From the IMG/VR virus record IMGVR_UViG_3300047546_001245, positions 1 to 36,460 of that record: 36,460 bases of DNA. One strand, 5' to 3'. Numbering within the stretch: position 1 is the stretch's first letter; the number at the start of each line of letters is the position of its first letter. This stretch comes from a virus. Below the pieces are notes generated by a model. That model made no database searches. It was not told the DNA's origin and saw only the letters and a list, made by a program, of their open reading frames with translations. The translations under genes and the position numbers were made by a program. Positions 5,172 through 33,924 of this stretch are shown one piece after another.

Positions 5172-5324
5172 TTATTTTTTACGTTTTTGCTCTTGATATT
5201 TACGAGCTTTATCTAAAGCTGCTTTACGCTTTTCTTTATCTGACATCTCAGTGCCGTCTTCTTTTTTGGCTTCTTTCTTCTTGAAGTGCTCAAGAAGTTG
5301 AGGAGGCATTTTACCTTTTGCCAT
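5172..5324 (-). CDS. short basic protein (MAKGKMPPQLLEHF type)
   Basis: This 50-residue, Lys-rich protein starts at ATG 5324, one base after the stop of the preceding gene. A longer in-frame version from 5414 is unlikely because it would run through the neighbouring gene. The sequence MAKGKMPPQLLEHFKKKEAK followed by a charged helix is a type I have seen repeatedly next to terminase genes in marine and freshwater phages. Its function is not known. The net positive charge would suit DNA or scaffold contact. Confidence 0.7.
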   Translation of the reverse strand: MAKGKMPPQLLEHFKKKEAKKEDGTEMSDKEKRKAALDKARKYQEQKRKK

Positions 5325-14540: not shown

Positions 14541-14654
14541 ATGGCACAAGAAACTTACACAGATCTTTGCGAAGAATACATCACCGAAGATGAACAAGCT
14601 TTCATCGAATGGTGGGAATCGCAACACCAAGATCTTGATACGGCTGAGGATTAG
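14541..14654 (+). CDS. very small acidic protein
   Basis: A 37-residue acidic product from ATG 14541 (MAQETYTDLCEEYITEDEQA) ends DLDTAED. An in-frame extension to 14436 would add a Cys-rich leader of poor quality. The stop codon TAG (14652-14654) lies inside a tRNA-like element that begins at 14643. No family is recognised. It is the first of a run of short genes separated by structured RNA. Confidence 0.55.
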   Translation: MAQETYTDLCEEYITEDEQAFIEWWESQHQDLDTAED

Positions 14655-14689
14655 GCGTGATGCCGGGGGATCGAATCCCCCACTCAGCA
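14643..14689 (+). ncRNA. mini tRNA-like element 1
   Basis: The acceptor-like stem GCTGAG (14643-14648) pairs with CTCAGC (14683-14688). A small hairpin GGC-GTGAT-GCC occupies 14654-14664. A T-arm-like hairpin has stem GGGGG/CCCCC (14665-14669, 14677-14681) and loop ATCGAAT. A discriminator-like A follows at 14689. There is no anticodon arm and CCA is not encoded. The 5' strand of the acceptor is coding sequence of the preceding gene. Elements 2 and 3 have the same plan with compensatory changes. Confidence 0.75.
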
Positions 14690-14690
14690 T

Positions 14691-14715
14691 TGCCTTCAGC
14701 GGAGATAGGCACCGC
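14691..14715 (+). ncRNA. hairpin after tRNA-like element 1
   Basis: TGCCT (14691-14695) pairs with AGGCA (14707-14711) around an 11-base loop containing GCGG. That loop motif could pair with CCGC at 14712-14715. The loop is almost identical after element 2, while the stem differs by two compensatory changes there. Confidence 0.65.
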
Positions 14716-14731
14716 ACTATCGTTCAGCACA

Positions 14732-14902
14732 ATGCAAATTACCTACGGTCAACTCTTTAAATTTATGGGTACCTTTACCAACCAGCAGTTGGATGATGCC
14801 CAAGTGATTGCAGAAAATCTGCATGAGCGTTTGGGTAAGTCCTACAACCAATGCTTGGTTGACATCCTAGTTGAAATACGCAAGGAACAACTTGCAAGCT
14901 AA
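14732..14902 (+). CDS. small protein, unknown function
   Basis: A 56-residue product from ATG 14732 (MQITYGQLFKFMGTFTNQQL). The middle is helical (DDAQVIAENLHERLGKSYNQ) and it ends EIRKEQLAS. An upstream in-frame start at 14657 would run through the tRNA-like element and is rejected. The stop TAA (14900-14902) lies inside the acceptor stem of element 2. Unknown function. Confidence 0.65.
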   Translation: MQITYGQLFKFMGTFTNQQLDDAQVIAENLHERLGKSYNQCLVDILVEIRKEQLAS

Positions 14903-14946
14903 GTCCGTTAAAGCGGCATGCCTGGGTGCAAACCCCAGGCTTAGCA
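14898..14946 (+). ncRNA. mini tRNA-like element 2
   Basis: The acceptor-like stem GCTAAG (14898-14903) pairs with CTTAGC (14940-14945); a T-G pair can extend it. A small hairpin CCG-TTAAAG-CGG lies at 14905-14916. The T-arm-like hairpin has stem CCTGGG/CCCAGG (14921-14926, 14934-14939) and loop TGCAAAC, close to the tRNA T-loop. A discriminator-like A follows at 14946. The sequence differs from elements 1 and 3 at most stem positions but keeps the pairing. Confidence 0.75.
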
Positions 14947-14947
14947 T

Positions 14948-14972
14948 TACCCCCAGCGGAGATGGGTACCGC
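14948..14972 (+). ncRNA. hairpin after tRNA-like element 2
   Basis: TACCC (14948-14952) pairs with GGGTA (14964-14968) around a loop with GCGG, followed directly by CCGC (14969-14972). This is the covarying counterpart of the hairpin at 14691-14715. Confidence 0.65.
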
Positions 14973-14986
14973 ACAGCAGAAGGGCC

Positions 14987-15223
14987 ATGATTAAGACCCA
15001 GCAGCTTGCACTCGATGCTCAACGCAAAGCTGAATCCATGGGATGGGAAACTTGCATCATATTGGATCAGTCCGATGTCGTTGACTTAGCAACTGTTGTT
15101 GCATGGGCACCAGGTGCAACCCAAGCTCGTTACATTTCCTTCATGGAAGGAAGTGAGAACTGCAAGGGTTGGGTACCTGTTAAGCACATGCATGACAAGC
15201 TTGCGTTTTGGCAAGCACTCTGA
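14987..15223 (+). CDS. small protein, unknown function
   Basis: This 78-residue protein has mixed alpha/beta character: LALDAQRKAESMGWETCIIL (residues 7-26), then strands and a C-terminal KHMHDKLAFWQAL. No signal peptide or membrane segment. The ATG at 14987 follows the hairpin after element 2. The stop TGA (15221-15223) lies inside the acceptor stem of tRNA-like element 3. I do not recognise a family. Confidence 0.7.
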   Translation: MIKTQQLALDAQRKAESMGWETCIILDQSDVVDLATVVAWAPGATQARYISFMEGSENCKGWVPVKHMHDKLAFWQAL

Positions 15224-15265
15224 GTATCAGGCGGGATGCCGGGGGATCGAATCCCCCACTCAGCA
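15220..15265 (+). ncRNA. mini tRNA-like element 3
   Basis: CTGAGT (15220-15225) pairs with ACTCAG (15258-15263). A small hairpin GGC-GGGAT-GCC lies at 15230-15240. The T-arm-like hairpin GGGGG/CCCCC (15241-15245, 15253-15257) has loop ATCGAAT. The T-arm matches element 1 exactly, while the 5' acceptor strand is again supplied by the end of a coding sequence. Confidence 0.72.
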
Positions 15266-15267
15266 TT

Positions 15268-15286
15268 GCTGCTCACTAAGAGCAGC
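15268..15286 (+). ncRNA. hairpin after tRNA-like element 3
   Basis: GCTGCTC (15268-15274) pairs perfectly with GAGCAGC (15280-15286) around ACTAA. It takes the place of the GCGG-loop hairpins found after elements 1 and 2. No T-run follows, so it is not a standard terminator. Confidence 0.65.
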
Positions 15287-15302: not shown

Positions 15303-15530
15303 ATGTTCATCTACCAACCTAATATCTACTCCAACGACCGTGTCGTCTGGTATGGAGGTGAATCTACTCAGCTCCATTACGAGACCGAGTCGGTGGATAA
15401 TCACGGCAACCCCCAGTAGGTTGACCGTGCAGTGCGTACTCTTGGCAGTGGTATCCCAACGAGTGTCAGCGAACTTCACGCTGACCTCGTTGATTACTAC
15501 AATTACTGCCAGGTATACGACTTCGAATAA
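15303..15530 (+). CDS. small protein gene interrupted by an in-frame amber codon
   Basis: From ATG 15303, preceded by CACAACTC, the frame encodes 38 residues (MFIYQPNIYSNDRVVWYGGE ...) and meets TAG at 15417-15419. The same frame then stays open for 36 more codons (VDRAVRTLGSGIPTSVSELH ...) to TAA at 15528-15530. The composition after the amber codon remains protein-like and acidic/aromatic. Options are readthrough, a recent nonsense mutation, a sequencing error, or a 38-residue protein with unused downstream sequence. Function unknown. Confidence 0.5.
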
Positions 15531-15531
15531 T

Positions 15532-15585
15532 TCCTGCACTTAGCCCTGTCATTGCACAGGGTTCTCTGCAGGACTTTATATCCTG
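15532..15585 (+). ncRNA. duplicated switch-like RNA element, copy 1
   Basis: The outer stem TCCTGCA (15532-15538) pairs with TGCAGGA (15567-15573). The inner hairpin CCCTGT/ACAGGG spans 15544-15561. The bases CAGGA (15569-15573) can instead pair with TCCTG (15581-15585), which makes a mutually exclusive fold. It begins one base after a stop codon and ends 25 bases before the next ATG. Confidence 0.65.
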
Positions 15586-15610
15586 TTCACAACTCAACTT
15601 AATTCAACTC

Positions 15611-16012
15611 ATGGCTTACGCTGATCTTCAAACCACTACCCTTGTCGGTCGCATTGCCGATCTCACTGTCATTCGCACAGAAGATGATCGGGAATGCCTG
15701 GTTGTTACTGTGTATCACCGCATCTCCTCCGATGCCGTGGTCACAATCAAGTTCCTCAACAGCAACGGATTGCTCACTGCTTACGGCAATGAGAATCTGA
15801 TTGTTGGCCAAGAACTTACCATCAGCGGCAAAATTCAAGGCATTCGTTCTTTCTACATGAAAGACGATGAACTGGTGCCGCTCAAGCAACCAGAACTCCA
15901 AATGAAAGTCACTGATTATGCTTTTGGTTCCAAGCCTCAACCGAAGCCTGAACCCAAAGCTACCTCCAAGAAATCAACGGCACAGCCTACGCTGGAGCCG
16001 ATTGAACTCTGA
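15611..16012 (+). CDS. OB-fold, SSB-like protein
   Basis: This 133-residue protein resembles single-stranded DNA-binding proteins. It opens TTTLVGRIADLTVIRTEDDR (residues 8-27), continues with alternating beta strands (ECLVVTVYHRI, VVTIKFLN), and has GQELTISGKIQ near 66-76, the usual place of the 'G..v.v.G.l' strand of an SSB OB fold. A Pro/Lys-rich linker and an acidic end (TLEPIEL) follow, like a short SSB tail. It would coat single-stranded DNA during replication or recombination. The start ATG follows AATTCAACTC. A second, larger SSB-like protein is at 29688. Confidence 0.6.
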   Translation: MAYADLQTTTLVGRIADLTVIRTEDDRECLVVTVYHRISSDAVVTIKFLNSNGLLTAYGNENLIVGQELTISGKIQGIRSFYMKDDELVPLKQPELQMKVTDYAFGSKPQPKPEPKATSKKSTAQPTLEPIEL

Positions 16013-16017
16013 TTGAT

Positions 16018-16071
16018 TCCTGCACTTAGCCCTGTCATCGCACAGGGTTTTCTGCAGGACTCCACATCCTG
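16018..16071 (+). ncRNA. duplicated switch-like RNA element, copy 2
   Basis: It repeats copy 1 almost exactly: outer stem TCCTGCA (16018-16024) with TGCAGGA (16053-16059), inner CCCTGT/ACAGGG at 16030-16047, and alternative partner TCCTG at 16067-16071. The loop regions differ (ATCG for ATTG; CTCCACA for CTTTATA), whereas all pairing strands are kept. It again lies just after a stop codon and upstream of a start. Confidence 0.65.
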
Positions 16072-16100
16072 CTCATTATTCACACCCAACATCTCACATC

Positions 16101-21682: not shown

Positions 21683-21895
21683 GTGACGGACTACACAGAC
21701 GATCAACTCCTTGCCATGGCACTTGGCAACATCGGTGATTTTCTCCATGACAATTCACCGCATTACGTGTTGATTGAAAATGATCCTCGCAATGAGGATG
21801 ACTACGACACATGGAGTTACGGTACTGAGCCGTTACCCCATGATCACACTTGGCGTTCAATGTCAATTGATGTAAGTCCAAGTGAGCCCGAGTAG
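21683..21895 (+). CDS. small acidic protein ending inside a tRNA gene
   Basis: This 70-residue protein starts at GTG 21683. It is acidic (NDPRNEDDYDTWSYGTEPLP) and ends SPSEPE. The last codons and the stop TAG (21893-21895) lie in the first ten bases of the tRNA-Leu gene, so the 5' acceptor strand of the tRNA doubles as coding sequence. The arrangement repeats that of the three tRNA-like elements at 14.6-15.3 kb. Confidence 0.65.
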   Translation: MTDYTDDQLLAMALGNIGDFLHDNSPHYVLIENDPRNEDDYDTWSYGTEPLPHDHTWRSMSIDVSPSEPE

Positions 21896-21962
21896 CCCAG
21901 CGGTAGTAGGCAAACGACTTAAAATCGTTCCAGCGTGGGTTCGAATCCCACCTCGGGTACCA
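21886..21962 (+). tRNA. tRNA-Leu (anticodon UAA), short variable loop
   Basis: A full cloverleaf: acceptor GCCCGAG (21886-21892) with CTCGGGT (21952-21958, first pair G-T); D arm 21895-21911; anticodon arm AACGA/TCGTT with loop CTTAAAA (anticodon TAA at 21920-21922); five-base variable loop CCAGC; T arm GTGGG-TTCGAAT-CCCAC; discriminator A and encoded CCA (21960-21962). Anticodon UAA reads UUA leucine codons. Leucine tRNAs normally carry a long variable arm, which is absent here. Confidence 0.92.
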
Positions 21963-22738: not shown

Positions 22739-23075
22739 TCATCTGATTACTATTCCAGAAGAACTAATTGACTTATGGGTGTCTCAATTCAATTCCCATA
22801 CTGATGAAGAAGTATTTACTAATATTGCCCAATGGGCTGCAGACCAGGAGTTGGAGGCGTGCTGCGAGTGGCTTGCTTCCTTGCCAAACAACTGGACATC
22901 GACTGCCCTTAAACGTGTTTCCGACCTCCGCGCCGTTCGCCGCCCCAAGCCGCCGAGCTTGAAGGAGCAGGCGTTAGCAGCATTGAAACGTCAAAGGACA
23001 AGATCAGTCCCGTCAATGGTTTCATTTGAAGATTGCGAAACCATCCGTCGCGCCCTGGAGCAACTCGATGACTGA
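22731..23075 (+). CDS. cassette family protein 1 (DQELEAC ... RRALEQLDD)
   Basis: This 114-residue protein belongs to a family with five members in this window. Shared blocks are WAADQELEACCEWL (residues 33-46), the linker RRPKPPSLKEQAL (about 68-80) and the end IRRALEQLDD. The family is one I have seen in cyanophages and picocyanobacteria without known function. The N-terminus is acidic and gene-specific. Start and stop overlap the neighbouring genes by 8 bp. Confidence 0.75.
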   Translation: MTDHLITIPEELIDLWVSQFNSHTDEEVFTNIAQWAADQELEACCEWLASLPNNWTSTALKRVSDLRAVRRPKPPSLKEQALAALKRQRTRSVPSMVSFEDCETIRRALEQLDD

Positions 23076-23319
23076 CTTTCGAGTGCTGTGCGCTGAGCTT
23101 GTTGACGAGCTTGAAGACTGGATTGCTTACGGCGATGAGGCCGACTGTGCCGATGCACATGCGGTTGTAGACCGCGCCCGAGCCGCCCTGTCCCAGCCCG
23201 AGCCGCATAACCTAAAAAAGCAGGCGCTAAGTGATCTCACTCACGCCTACAACGCAGACAAGATTGACGACACGACGTTTGAAAACCTCCGCCGCGCATT
23301 GGAGCAACTCGATGACTAA
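23068..23319 (+). CDS. cassette family protein 2
   Basis: This is an 83-residue product from ATG 23068 inside the previous gene's last codons. It lacks the DQELEAC block but keeps a shortened linker (NLKKQALSDL) and the ending LRRALEQLDD. The first half (CAELVDELEDWIAYGDEADC) is acidic and helical, and DRARAALSQPEP marks the middle. Base composition is richer in G and C than the flanking genes. It is probably a recombined or truncated family member. Confidence 0.7.
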   Translation: MTDFRVLCAELVDELEDWIAYGDEADCADAHAVVDRARAALSQPEPHNLKKQALSDLTHAYNADKIDDTTFENLRRALEQLDD

Positions 23320-23632
23320 CAATCAACAACATCCCATCACCCCACCGCCAAAGCTAATGAAGGAGTGGCTTGAAGAGTTGGATACGTCTGCTCCCCAAGA
23401 TGTGCTGCTGGCCGTTGTTCAATGGGGCGCCGACCAGGAGCTGGAGGCATGTGCTCAATGGGTGGATTGGCGTTGGTCGGGAATCAAAAGCAGGGAACTC
23501 CGCGCCGCCAGACGCCCCAAACCTCCGAGCTTGAAGGAGCAGGCGCTGGAGGAACTAGCTGAATGGGAGAACGTTATGGACATTGCACCCGATAGCCCCA
23601 TCCGCCGCGCCCTGGAGCAACTCGATGACTAA
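23312..23632 (+). CDS. cassette family protein 3
   Basis: A 106-residue product from ATG 23312 (MTNNQQHPITPPPKLMKEWL). It has the complete pattern: QWGADQELEACAQWV (about residues 39-53), RRPKPPSLKEQAL, and IRRALEQLDD at the end. The N-terminus closely matches that of the distant copy at 33327 (TNQQQHPIAPPPELVEKW), which shows that cassettes move within the genome or between related phages. Confidence 0.75.
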   Translation: MTNNQQHPITPPPKLMKEWLEELDTSAPQDVLLAVVQWGADQELEACAQWVDWRWSGIKSRELRAARRPKPPSLKEQALEELAEWENVMDIAPDSPIRRALEQLDD

Positions 23633-24017
23633 ACAAATTAACGGTGACAAGTTGTTTGTTATTGATCATCATCCTGCTATTCCACCTTCTGATTTATTAA
23701 AGAAGTGGGAAGATGCCTGGTTTGATGAAGAAGAACATGCTGATGTTCTATTGATCCAGGCATTTCAAGCAGGAGCTGACCAGGAGTTAGAGGCGTGTAT
23801 TGATTGGCTTGCCAATGCACGCAACCATTCTCTTGATTGGGACGAAGCTACTTACTTCTCTGCCAACCTCCGCACTGCTCGCCGTCCTAAGTTGCAGAGC
23901 TTAAAAGAACGAGCGTTGGAACTAGCAAAACCACCAGGAACAGAAGGTGCTTATGTCACGTTTGGTCCTGAAGAACTTGCACTTATTCGCCGTGCACTAG
24001 AGCAACTTAATGACTGA
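23625..24017 (+). CDS. cassette family protein 4
   Basis: This 130-residue product starts at ATG 23625. It carries AGADQELEACIDWLANAR (about residues 47-64), RRPKLQSLKERAL and the end IRRALEQLND. Codon use is more AT-rich than in the preceding two members, so it has probably been in the genome longer. Its stop overlaps the next ATG by 8 bp. Confidence 0.75.
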   Translation: MTKQINGDKLFVIDHHPAIPPSDLLKKWEDAWFDEEEHADVLLIQAFQAGADQELEACIDWLANARNHSLDWDEATYFSANLRTARRPKLQSLKERALELAKPPGTEGAYVTFGPEELALIRRALEQLND

Positions 24018-24423
24018 ACCAACAATGGACAACAAAATTATTTTTCAACAAGACTCTCCCAATGGAATGGAAGAAGTACTACGTCTTGACAAAAAAGGTT
24101 TTCATTACAAAGATCAGTTCATTGCTGATGCTGGTGAAGCTTACCGCTTAATGGTGGAATTCCTTAAACCAGCTAGTCAGCCAAAGGAAAGTTTAATGAT
24201 GAAACTTTCTCCTACTACTCAAAAAGTTTGGAATGCATTTAAAACCAATGGAATATGCGCAGAAGAAAAACTTGCTGTTGCTTTGGAAACTATTACCAAA
24301 CAATTAGAAAGTCACATCGACTTACCAAATGTTGATGGCAGTAAGTATGCAGGAATATGGCATTGTATTGATTACCTTTCAGACATCGCTAACGAACTAA
24401 AAGATAACGATGAAATGCCGTAA
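24010..24423 (+). CDS. hypothetical phage protein
   Basis: This 137-residue protein has a short beta hairpin (GMEEVLRLDKKGFHYKDQFI, residues 19-38) and a helical C-terminal part with a single Trp/Cys/His motif (GIWHCIDYLSDIANELKDND). The N-terminal element resembles short phage proteins with a 'LrldkdGf.ykg..v.D..eay..f..fl' pattern, whose function is not known. It overlaps both neighbours and is part of the coupled run. Confidence 0.65.
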   Translation: MTEPTMDNKIIFQQDSPNGMEEVLRLDKKGFHYKDQFIADAGEAYRLMVEFLKPASQPKESLMMKLSPTTQKVWNAFKTNGICAEEKLAVALETITKQLESHIDLPNVDGSKYAGIWHCIDYLSDIANELKDNDEMP

Positions 24424-33330: not shown

Positions 33331-33728
33331 CTAATCAACAACAACACCCCATTGCCCCACCGCCGGAGCTGGTTGAAAAGTGGGCAAATGATTCGGTTCC
33401 CATGAGGGCCAATGCAACAGCCCGAGACTGGGAGATTGTTTTTGCCACCCGAGCCGCTCAATGGGGCGCCGACCAGGAGCTGGAGGCGTGCTGTAAGTGG
33501 CTACGCGAAGCCAAAAATCATGGTCTTGGTTATGAGTACGGGCAGGAGCTTGCCGACAGGTATCGCGCCGCCCGCCGCCCATCTCCTAAGCCACCAAGCG
33601 CTGTTGCGCAAGCAAAAGCATTGATTGAGCGCCACGAGGATGGTTGGTGCCCAAGCGACGCTGAATGGCACGTTATCCAAGAGGGACTGGCCGAAGGACT
33701 CTGTGCACTGGAGCAACTCGATGACTAA
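33327..33728 (+). CDS. cassette family protein 5, distant copy
   Basis: This 133-residue member of the DQELEAC family lies 10 kb from the main cluster. It starts TNQQQHPIAPPPELVEKW, has QWGADQELEACCKWLREA (about residues 45-62), a shortened linker (RRPSPKPPSAVAQAKAL) and the end LCALEQLDD. It is richer in G and C than its neighbours. The same ATGACTAA junction joins it to the following gene. Function unknown. Confidence 0.75.
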   Translation: MTNQQQHPIAPPPELVEKWANDSVPMRANATARDWEIVFATRAAQWGADQELEACCKWLREAKNHGLGYEYGQELADRYRAARRPSPKPPSAVAQAKALIERHEDGWCPSDAEWHVIQEGLAEGLCALEQLDD

Positions 33729-33924
33729 CTCTTTTCTTTCATCAGAATCTTATTGGATGGGTCCAGGTGTTATCTGTCCTAAACATGGAACACATCCACA
33801 TACTATTGTAAGTACCATTAAAGGTCATGAAGGACATTGGTGTATGATTTGCGCCCTTGAAGCGCTTGGAAATCCATTACCAACAATCACACAAGAAGAG
33901 TATTTAAAACAAAACAATGACTGA
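33721..33924 (+). CDS. small zinc-binding-like protein
   Basis: This is a 67-residue product from ATG 33721 inside the last codons of the cassette gene. Cys/His spacing is suggestive of a metal site: GVICPKHGTHPHTIVS (residues 13-28) and HWCMICALEALG. With a CxxH pair and a CxxC pair it could hold one zinc ion. It ends QNND with the next ATG overlapping by 8 bp. No family recognised. Confidence 0.65.
   Translation: MTNSFLSSESYWMGPGVICPKHGTHPHTIVSTIKGHEGHWCMICALEALGNPLPTITQEEYLKQNND

Follow-up and report, generated by a model that had tools for sequence, protein, structure and literature searches.

The window, that is, the whole stretch of DNA analysed here, is a 36,460-base virus record that encodes a terminase, a DNA polymerase of the pol I type and a thymidylate synthase, and whose array region resembles that of Synechococcus phage S-EIV1. 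Within the array, three small open reading frames (ORFs A to C) follow one another, and the stop codon of each lies in a tRNA-like structure (TLS), designated W1, W2 and W3 (Table 1). ORFs A to C and a 133-amino acid protein had no Pfam match above cut-off, ORF C and the 133-amino acid protein had none in PHROGs, and no consensus promoter was detected ahead of ORF A, the first gene of the array. Homologues of the next gene, ORF D (family F7), seem to continue in frame past its internal TAG to 15530; this TAG may be an assembly error, an amber mutation or a site of readthrough. The window also carries a genuine tRNA-Leu(UAA), found again in many related phages, which has no pseudoknot downstream but likewise contains the stop codon of the ORF preceding it (TAG, about 21893-21895). 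A second structured repeat (15520-15596 and 16006-16082, 83% identical) lies at the stop codons of the two genes that follow and folds as CCTGCA/TGCAGG around CCCTGT/ACAGGG, with a further hairpin after; it is present in S-EIV1 too (locus L001, about 5205-5262) and once lies directly 5' of a pseudoknot (L056, about 2460-2530). Repeated segments D1-D3, at 22829-24018 and 33458-33729, resemble a family of small paralogous genes.

Table 1. Features of the small-gene array and the tRNA gene of the window.
Feature	Position	Strand	Details
ORF A (37 aa)	14541-14654	+	stop TAG 14652-14654 inside W1; from sequence
W1 TLS	14643-14689	+	acceptor 14643-14648/14683-14688; N73 14689
W1 arms	14654-14664; 14665-14681	+	small hairpin; T-arm
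Pseudoknot 1	14692-14715	+	S1 GCCT 14692-14695/AGGC 14707-14710; S2 GCGG 14699-14702/CCGC 14712-14715
ORF B (56 aa)	14732-14902	+	stop TAA 14900-14902 inside W2
W2 TLS	14898-14946	+	acceptor 14898-14903/14940-14945; N73 14946; 79 bits, E 1e-15
W2 arms	14905-14916; 14921-14939	+	D-like hairpin; T-arm
Pseudoknot 2	14949-14972	+	S1 ACCC 14949-14952/GGGT 14964-14967; S2 GCGG 14956-14959/CCGC 14969-14972
ORF C (78 aa)	14987-15223	+	stop TGA 15221-15223 inside W3
W3 TLS	15219-15265	+	acceptor 15220-15225/15258-15263
W3 arms	15230-15240; 15241-15257	+	small hairpin; T-arm
Plain hairpin	15268-15286	+	GCTGCTC/GAGCAGC; replaces pseudoknot after W3, 2 nt past A15265
ORF D	15303-15530	+	next gene of the array; in-frame TAG 15417-15419
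tRNA-Leu(UAA)	21886-21962		CCA encoded; ARAGORN/Rfam tRNA searches

As a preliminary description of the sequence had proposed, the three segments fold into an acceptor-like stem, a small hairpin and a T-arm, with predicted energies of -25.0, -20.9 and -21.3 kcal/mol (z of -3.8, -2.6 and -2.7); 0, 1 and 2 of 200 shuffles, respectively, folded as well. Some details of that description needed revision. Its acceptor pairing holds overall, that of W3 being corrected to CUGAGU/ACUCAG, and the stop codon that it placed in or beside the 5' acceptor strand lies inside the strand in W2 and W3, while the TAG of W1 spans the linker into the small hairpin. The features of the top half of tRNA, a 12-bp acceptor/T-arm stack and a 7-nt T-loop, are present; the loop is more certain for W2 (UGCAAAC) than in the class of W1 and W3 (RUCRAAY), where it is doubtful, because in the latter positions 54 and 60 covary as Watson-Crick pairs (A-U or G-C, with 0 mixed among 26) and RNAfold closes the loop to a CGA triloop, which it may be. 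Acceptor and T stem in the W1/W3 class are 7+5 bp, as in tRNA. W1-W3 matched neither RF00005 nor ARAGORN as canonical tRNAs, the sole match in the window being tRNA-Leu. ARAGORN and Rfam were negative for tmRNA also, and the elements have neither CCA nor a tag frame.

W1 and W2 run directly into an H-type pseudoknot, which the preliminary description had not reported and in which AGAT separates S2 from S1'; W3 is followed by a plain hairpin, and in all three the next stem begins two bases (UU) after the discriminator base. The earlier suggestion that a pseudoknot belongs with the TLS therefore applies to two of the three window copies and to most homologues, with W3 as the exception, and S-EIV1 has two TLS copies, one with a pseudoknot and one with a hairpin. 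A covariance model (R1), built with the pseudoknot included, gave W2 a strong score of 79 bits and W1 a weak one of 38.5; W3, lacking the pseudoknot, was detected by structure only.

Relatives were collected mainly by DNA patterns, which were far more productive than protein-anchored searches (zero relatives with ORF C and two loci only with the 133-amino acid ORF). IMG/VR was searched with a short pattern for each of pseudoknot and TLS, the matches listed being a lower bound in both cases. In the pseudoknot-anchored set, a TLS lies upstream in at least dozens of sequences that had not been selected for one. A structural descriptor found at least 184 unique TLS in the collected loci and 2 in the same DNA reversed, an enrichment that is expected because the loci were fetched by motif; many of the variants that it recovered are absent from the fetch patterns. 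Columns fixed by the patterns (part of the pseudoknot in the first set, GAGAT in the second) were not counted as evidence. In the 5+7 class (36 homologues, 828 pair cells), pairing is kept in 99.0% of the cells, double changes number 127 (41 in shuffles) and fall in 13 of 23 pairs, and the covariation score is 0.445, compared with 0.156 when shuffled and at most 0.116 with the 3' partners slid. Both pseudoknot helices carry double changes as well (49 cells versus 9.4 in shuffles; 42 pseudoknots, 41 distinct). In the TLS-anchored set the downstream S2 varies in step (GCGG/CCGC, GTGG/CCAC, GCAG/CTGC, GAGG/CCTC, AGGG/CCCT, GCCG/CGGC), and hairpins and pseudoknots substitute for each other downstream of the TLS. 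Covariation in homologous phages, on which the preliminary description had let its reading depend, is thus found for the helices of both TLS and pseudoknot, and W1-W3 are members of a large cyanophage family of anticodon-less tRNA-like structures. The strict pattern of TLS plus pseudoknot had no match in 84,980 prokaryote species genomes, nor did model R1 in a shallow first scan of five host genomes. Near the end of one array (L033, 7427-7500), a match to the type II hammerhead ribozyme fell below threshold (30.3 bits, cut-off 37).

The likeness to tRNA extends to tertiary structure. Among cleanly parsed copies of the U54 class, to which W2 but not the W1/W3 class belongs, the two 3'-terminal bases of the loop in the small hairpin covary with T-loop positions 55 and 56; the comparison leaves aside copies in a shifted register, whose outer U-G pair makes the loop seem to finish with GC, as well as a small number that parsed poorly. 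For 19-56, a loop ending in G occurs with C56 and one ending in A with U56 (43 distinct hairpin/T-loop combinations G-C, 6 A-U and 0 mixed; Fisher p 7e-8, uncorrected for relatedness), and for 18-55, U55 occurs with G18 and G55 mostly with A or C. Since these contacts match those of tRNA, the small hairpin of the U54 class is a D arm with a tRNA-type elbow. Overall, the tRNA-like reading of W1-W3 is strongly supported.

The dimensions of the fold are held within narrow limits. With lengths of 9-15 allowed, the acceptor and T stems sum to 12 in 59 of 75 copies and to 13 in 12, and the sum of 12 is kept though the split shifts between 5+7, 6+6 and 7+5. In nearly all copies UU comes after N73, which is mostly A, and a stem begins right after the N73-UU (offset 3 or 4) in 151 of 168 TLS versus 44 of 168 random sites, the TLS having been located irrespective of downstream sequence and pseudoknot or plain hairpin counted alike. 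This junction looks like that of CCA-less host tRNA genes: CCA is absent in 28 of the 29 WH7803 tRNAs examined, and the trailer begins with U in 22 of those 28 and in 13 of 13 from other cyanobacteria. As an argument for tRNA-type cleavage the junction has a weak point, in that the UU could be conserved for the pseudoknot and not for an enzyme.

The position of the elements relative to genes is equally regular. Of the 179 TLS listed, 173 have the end of an ORF, 35 codons or longer, in the interval -20 to +30 around their start, as against 23% of random sites, and in 111 of the 179 the stop codon is exactly at +2/+3, in the 5' acceptor strand; a start codon follows 170 of the 179, at a median of 42 nt past N73. 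The overlap may reflect compactness, or a switch in which the terminating ribosome briefly unfolds the TLS. An alternative to cleavage is translational coupling, in which a terminating ribosome would melt the TLS, and TLS and pseudoknot, mimicking a tRNA close to the P/E site, would then hold or re-recruit it so that it reinitiates at the next start codon, about 42 nt downstream. Both sets of counts favour such coupling, as do the many starts inside a small Shine-Dalgarno hairpin, and cleavage alone leaves the stop-codon overlap unexplained; that a hairpin can replace the pseudoknot argues against it, and with the evidence from T7-like phages given below we consider coupling rather unlikely. 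The hairpins in question enclose the Shine-Dalgarno sequence and start codon just 5' of many genes, for example CAGGAGATTCCTGTG, ATGGAGTTATCCATGG and ACGGAGAACACCGTG.

Among 20 phage records selected for carrying the TLS, copies number 1-8 per phage and lie in a single cluster of up to about 2.3 kb. The neighbouring genes are shuffled, with 128 distinct pairs among 163 junctions and 11-18 partners on each side for families F1 and F2 (families were defined by protein clustering with starts trimmed, since the pseudoknot itself gets translated). TLS sequence tracks the upstream gene (mean identity 0.617) and not the downstream one (0.533; baseline 0.520). Shuffling and clustering of this kind would be expected if the elements were mainly DNA-level junctions for the recombination of small-gene cassettes, a reading that we regard as very improbable: the compensatory changes point to selection on RNA, structure is kept as sequences diverge, T7-like phages were found with one copy, and RNA boundaries that are portable may bring about the shuffling incidentally.

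The TLS pattern also matched contigs with genes for PsbA and for a capsid protein of T7-like type, and an unannotated element was found between a short ORF and the capsid gene in P-SSP7, P-SSP2/3, S-TIP37, S-SBP1, S-RIP1 and other T7-like marine cyanophages, one TLS copy being found in each. Model R1, made from copies of the S-EIV1 type, detects several of these (P-SSP7, E 2e-4; S-SBP1, E 4e-6). Downstream come UU, a stem-loop domain and then a pseudoknot-like block, GUCUAGACGGUGGGAUAGACCAC, which resembles the S-EIV1-type knot by eye and whose own helices barely vary. In loci L124, L131, L150, L205 and L210-L212, a tiny ORF with a YRGVxY motif, which we take to be DUF4278-like, ends inside the TLS before the capsid gene.

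A census anchored on block GUCUAGACGGUGGGAUAGACCAC alone gave 105 unique sites, at which the upstream module is a mini-TLS (47), a hairpin that keeps the 12-nt ruler, with loop UCAGAGUC or close variants (51), a tRNA-Gly-like RNA with an anticodon arm and a poor D arm (5) or a true tRNA-Gly(UCC) (2), one of the last being annotated in NATL1A-7. From the hairpin loop to the UUGG is 14 nt in 43 of 50, and about 13-14 for TLS and tRNA. Parsimony on a capsid tree of 95 phages requires a minimum of 26 switches of module type; if only well-supported branches are considered, the TLS label must still change 14 times. Because the type switches repeatedly before the same fold and capsid gene, the upstream module has been swapped and the downstream fold kept. 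At about half of the sites the module is a hairpin with a sequence unlike that of tRNA, so that tRNA identity can be dispensed with here. A hairpin with a near-invariant octaloop (TCAGAGTC/TCAGTGTC, between CACC and GGA), seen in L207, L208, L213 and others, lies about 40 nt before the TTGG block in about half of T7-like cyanophages, and its distance to the junction nearly equals that of the TLS. These phages speak against translational coupling in three respects: 105-139 nt lie between the module and the capsid start, the preceding ORF in NATL1A-7 ends 31 nt short of the tRNA-Gly, and the module has been exchanged for a real tRNA that, once excised, would be unable to act in cis on a terminating ribosome.

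The exchange of mimic and tRNA at one site suggests that host tRNA-cutting enzymes separate viral messages. A true tRNA needs cutting at N73 to function, and therefore the capsid message in the tRNA-Gly phages must start with UUGG; that the mimics would be cut likewise is the simplest reading, because the same 12-bp stack, elbow, discriminator and UU stand at the same junction. For the mechanism we infer three things, cleavage, the identity of the enzyme and protection of the new 5' end. W1-W3 would serve as punctuation marks in a polycistronic phage RNA, being tRNA mimics that have the 12-bp stack and elbow but neither anticodon arm nor CCA. The host machinery that matures tRNA 3' ends, most likely RNase Z, of which cyanobacteria have a single gene, would cut after N73, giving the upstream message a stable tRNA-like 3' end, while the downstream message would begin with UU and pass immediately into a pseudoknot or hairpin. 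This structure would keep RNase J or RNase E away from the freshly made monophosphate 5' terminus for as long as no ribosome has loaded at the start codon, which lies about 42 nt downstream. Cyanobacteria possess RNase Z and RNase P, together with an RNase J that is essential and attacks RNAs whose 5' ends lack a triphosphate (PMC10989914). To tRNA-type cleavage after N73 by RNase Z, perhaps with RNase P, separating cistrons and leaving mRNAs with a structured 5' end, we would give an even chance on these comparative grounds.

Two further alternatives bear on the enzyme and on cleavage itself. Cleavage of RNase P type at the 5' side could be the main event, so that the downstream mRNA would open with TLS and pseudoknot; RNase P, too, recognizes its substrates by a 12-bp ruler and elbow, and minihelix-like hairpins occur at the same T7-like site. 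We think this decidedly unlikely, as the conserved junction is on the 3' side and in most copies the upstream mRNA would lose its stop codon through the cut, so that RNase Z fits the stop-overlapping copies better. Alternatively, there may be no cleavage, TLS and next stem either forming a roadblock in whose shelter 3' and 5' decay intermediates persist, or recruiting a tRNA-binding protein. The great stability of the folds and the mutual replacement of hairpins and pseudoknots agree with this, but it is quite improbable, leaving unexplained the elbow covariation, the 12-nt ruler and the exchange with intact tRNA-Gly.

Several known systems invite comparison. A 2017 survey by Weinberg and colleagues reportedly described motifs named TLS-PK from metagenomes, apparently viral; the name joins tRNA-like structure and pseudoknot, an order of elements seen here in two of three window copies and most homologues, and the likeness is one of name and general layout. 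The preliminary description had suggested that the three elements may belong to these motifs or be new. No Rfam 15 family matches the window, its genuine tRNA-Leu aside, or 18 copy-rich loci at gathering or relaxed thresholds, and literature searches on TLS-PK, cyanophage tRNA-like structures, P-SSP7 processing and phage tRNA punctuation found no direct report. If the TLS-PK motifs are the same elements, the structure is already known, and what is new would be the elbow covariation, the fixed N73-UU junction, the T7-like site, the tRNA exchange and the cassette shuffling. In mitochondrial tRNA punctuation, RNase P and RNase Z release mRNAs at tRNA-shaped units that lie between genes and abut stop and start codons, and at one cyanophage site a real tRNA occupies this place; the cyanophage units differ in being anticodon-less mimics with a pseudoknot or hairpin, for which cleavage is predicted. 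The mascRNA of MALAT1/MEN-beta, which is excised by RNase P and RNase Z and receives CCA, shares the use of a tRNA-like fold in processing a non-tRNA transcript, whereas the cyanophage TLS overlaps the stop codon and repeats between cistrons. The tRNA-like domain of tmRNA has an acceptor and T-arm without an anticodon arm and linked pseudoknots, from which the present elements differ in having neither CCA nor a tag frame and in drawing no tmRNA call from ARAGORN. Plant-virus 3' TLS of the TYMV type share tRNA mimicry in viral RNA with a pseudoknot nearby; those RNAs are aminoacylated and build their acceptor from a pseudoknot at the 3' terminus, whereas the cyanophage pseudoknot is separate and downstream.

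That portable mini-tRNAs act as punctuation, host 3' processing turning arrays into single-gene mRNAs that each carry a tRNA-like tail and a 5' pseudoknot, with the boundaries making small genes exchangeable as cassettes and real tRNAs interchangeable with mimics, is a proposal to which we give somewhat less than an even chance. As carriers have been cultured (S-EIV1, P-SSP7, S-TIP37, S-SBP1 and NATL1A-7), it can be tested at once, and controls exist already in nature, where mimic, real tRNA and hairpin replace one another at a single site. If true, it would place tRNA punctuation outside organelles, in widespread viruses of Synechococcus and Prochlorococcus, and also ahead of the major capsid gene in phages of the P-SSP7 type, and it would explain both how a long transcript of tiny genes becomes separate stable messages and how such genes come to be shuffled.
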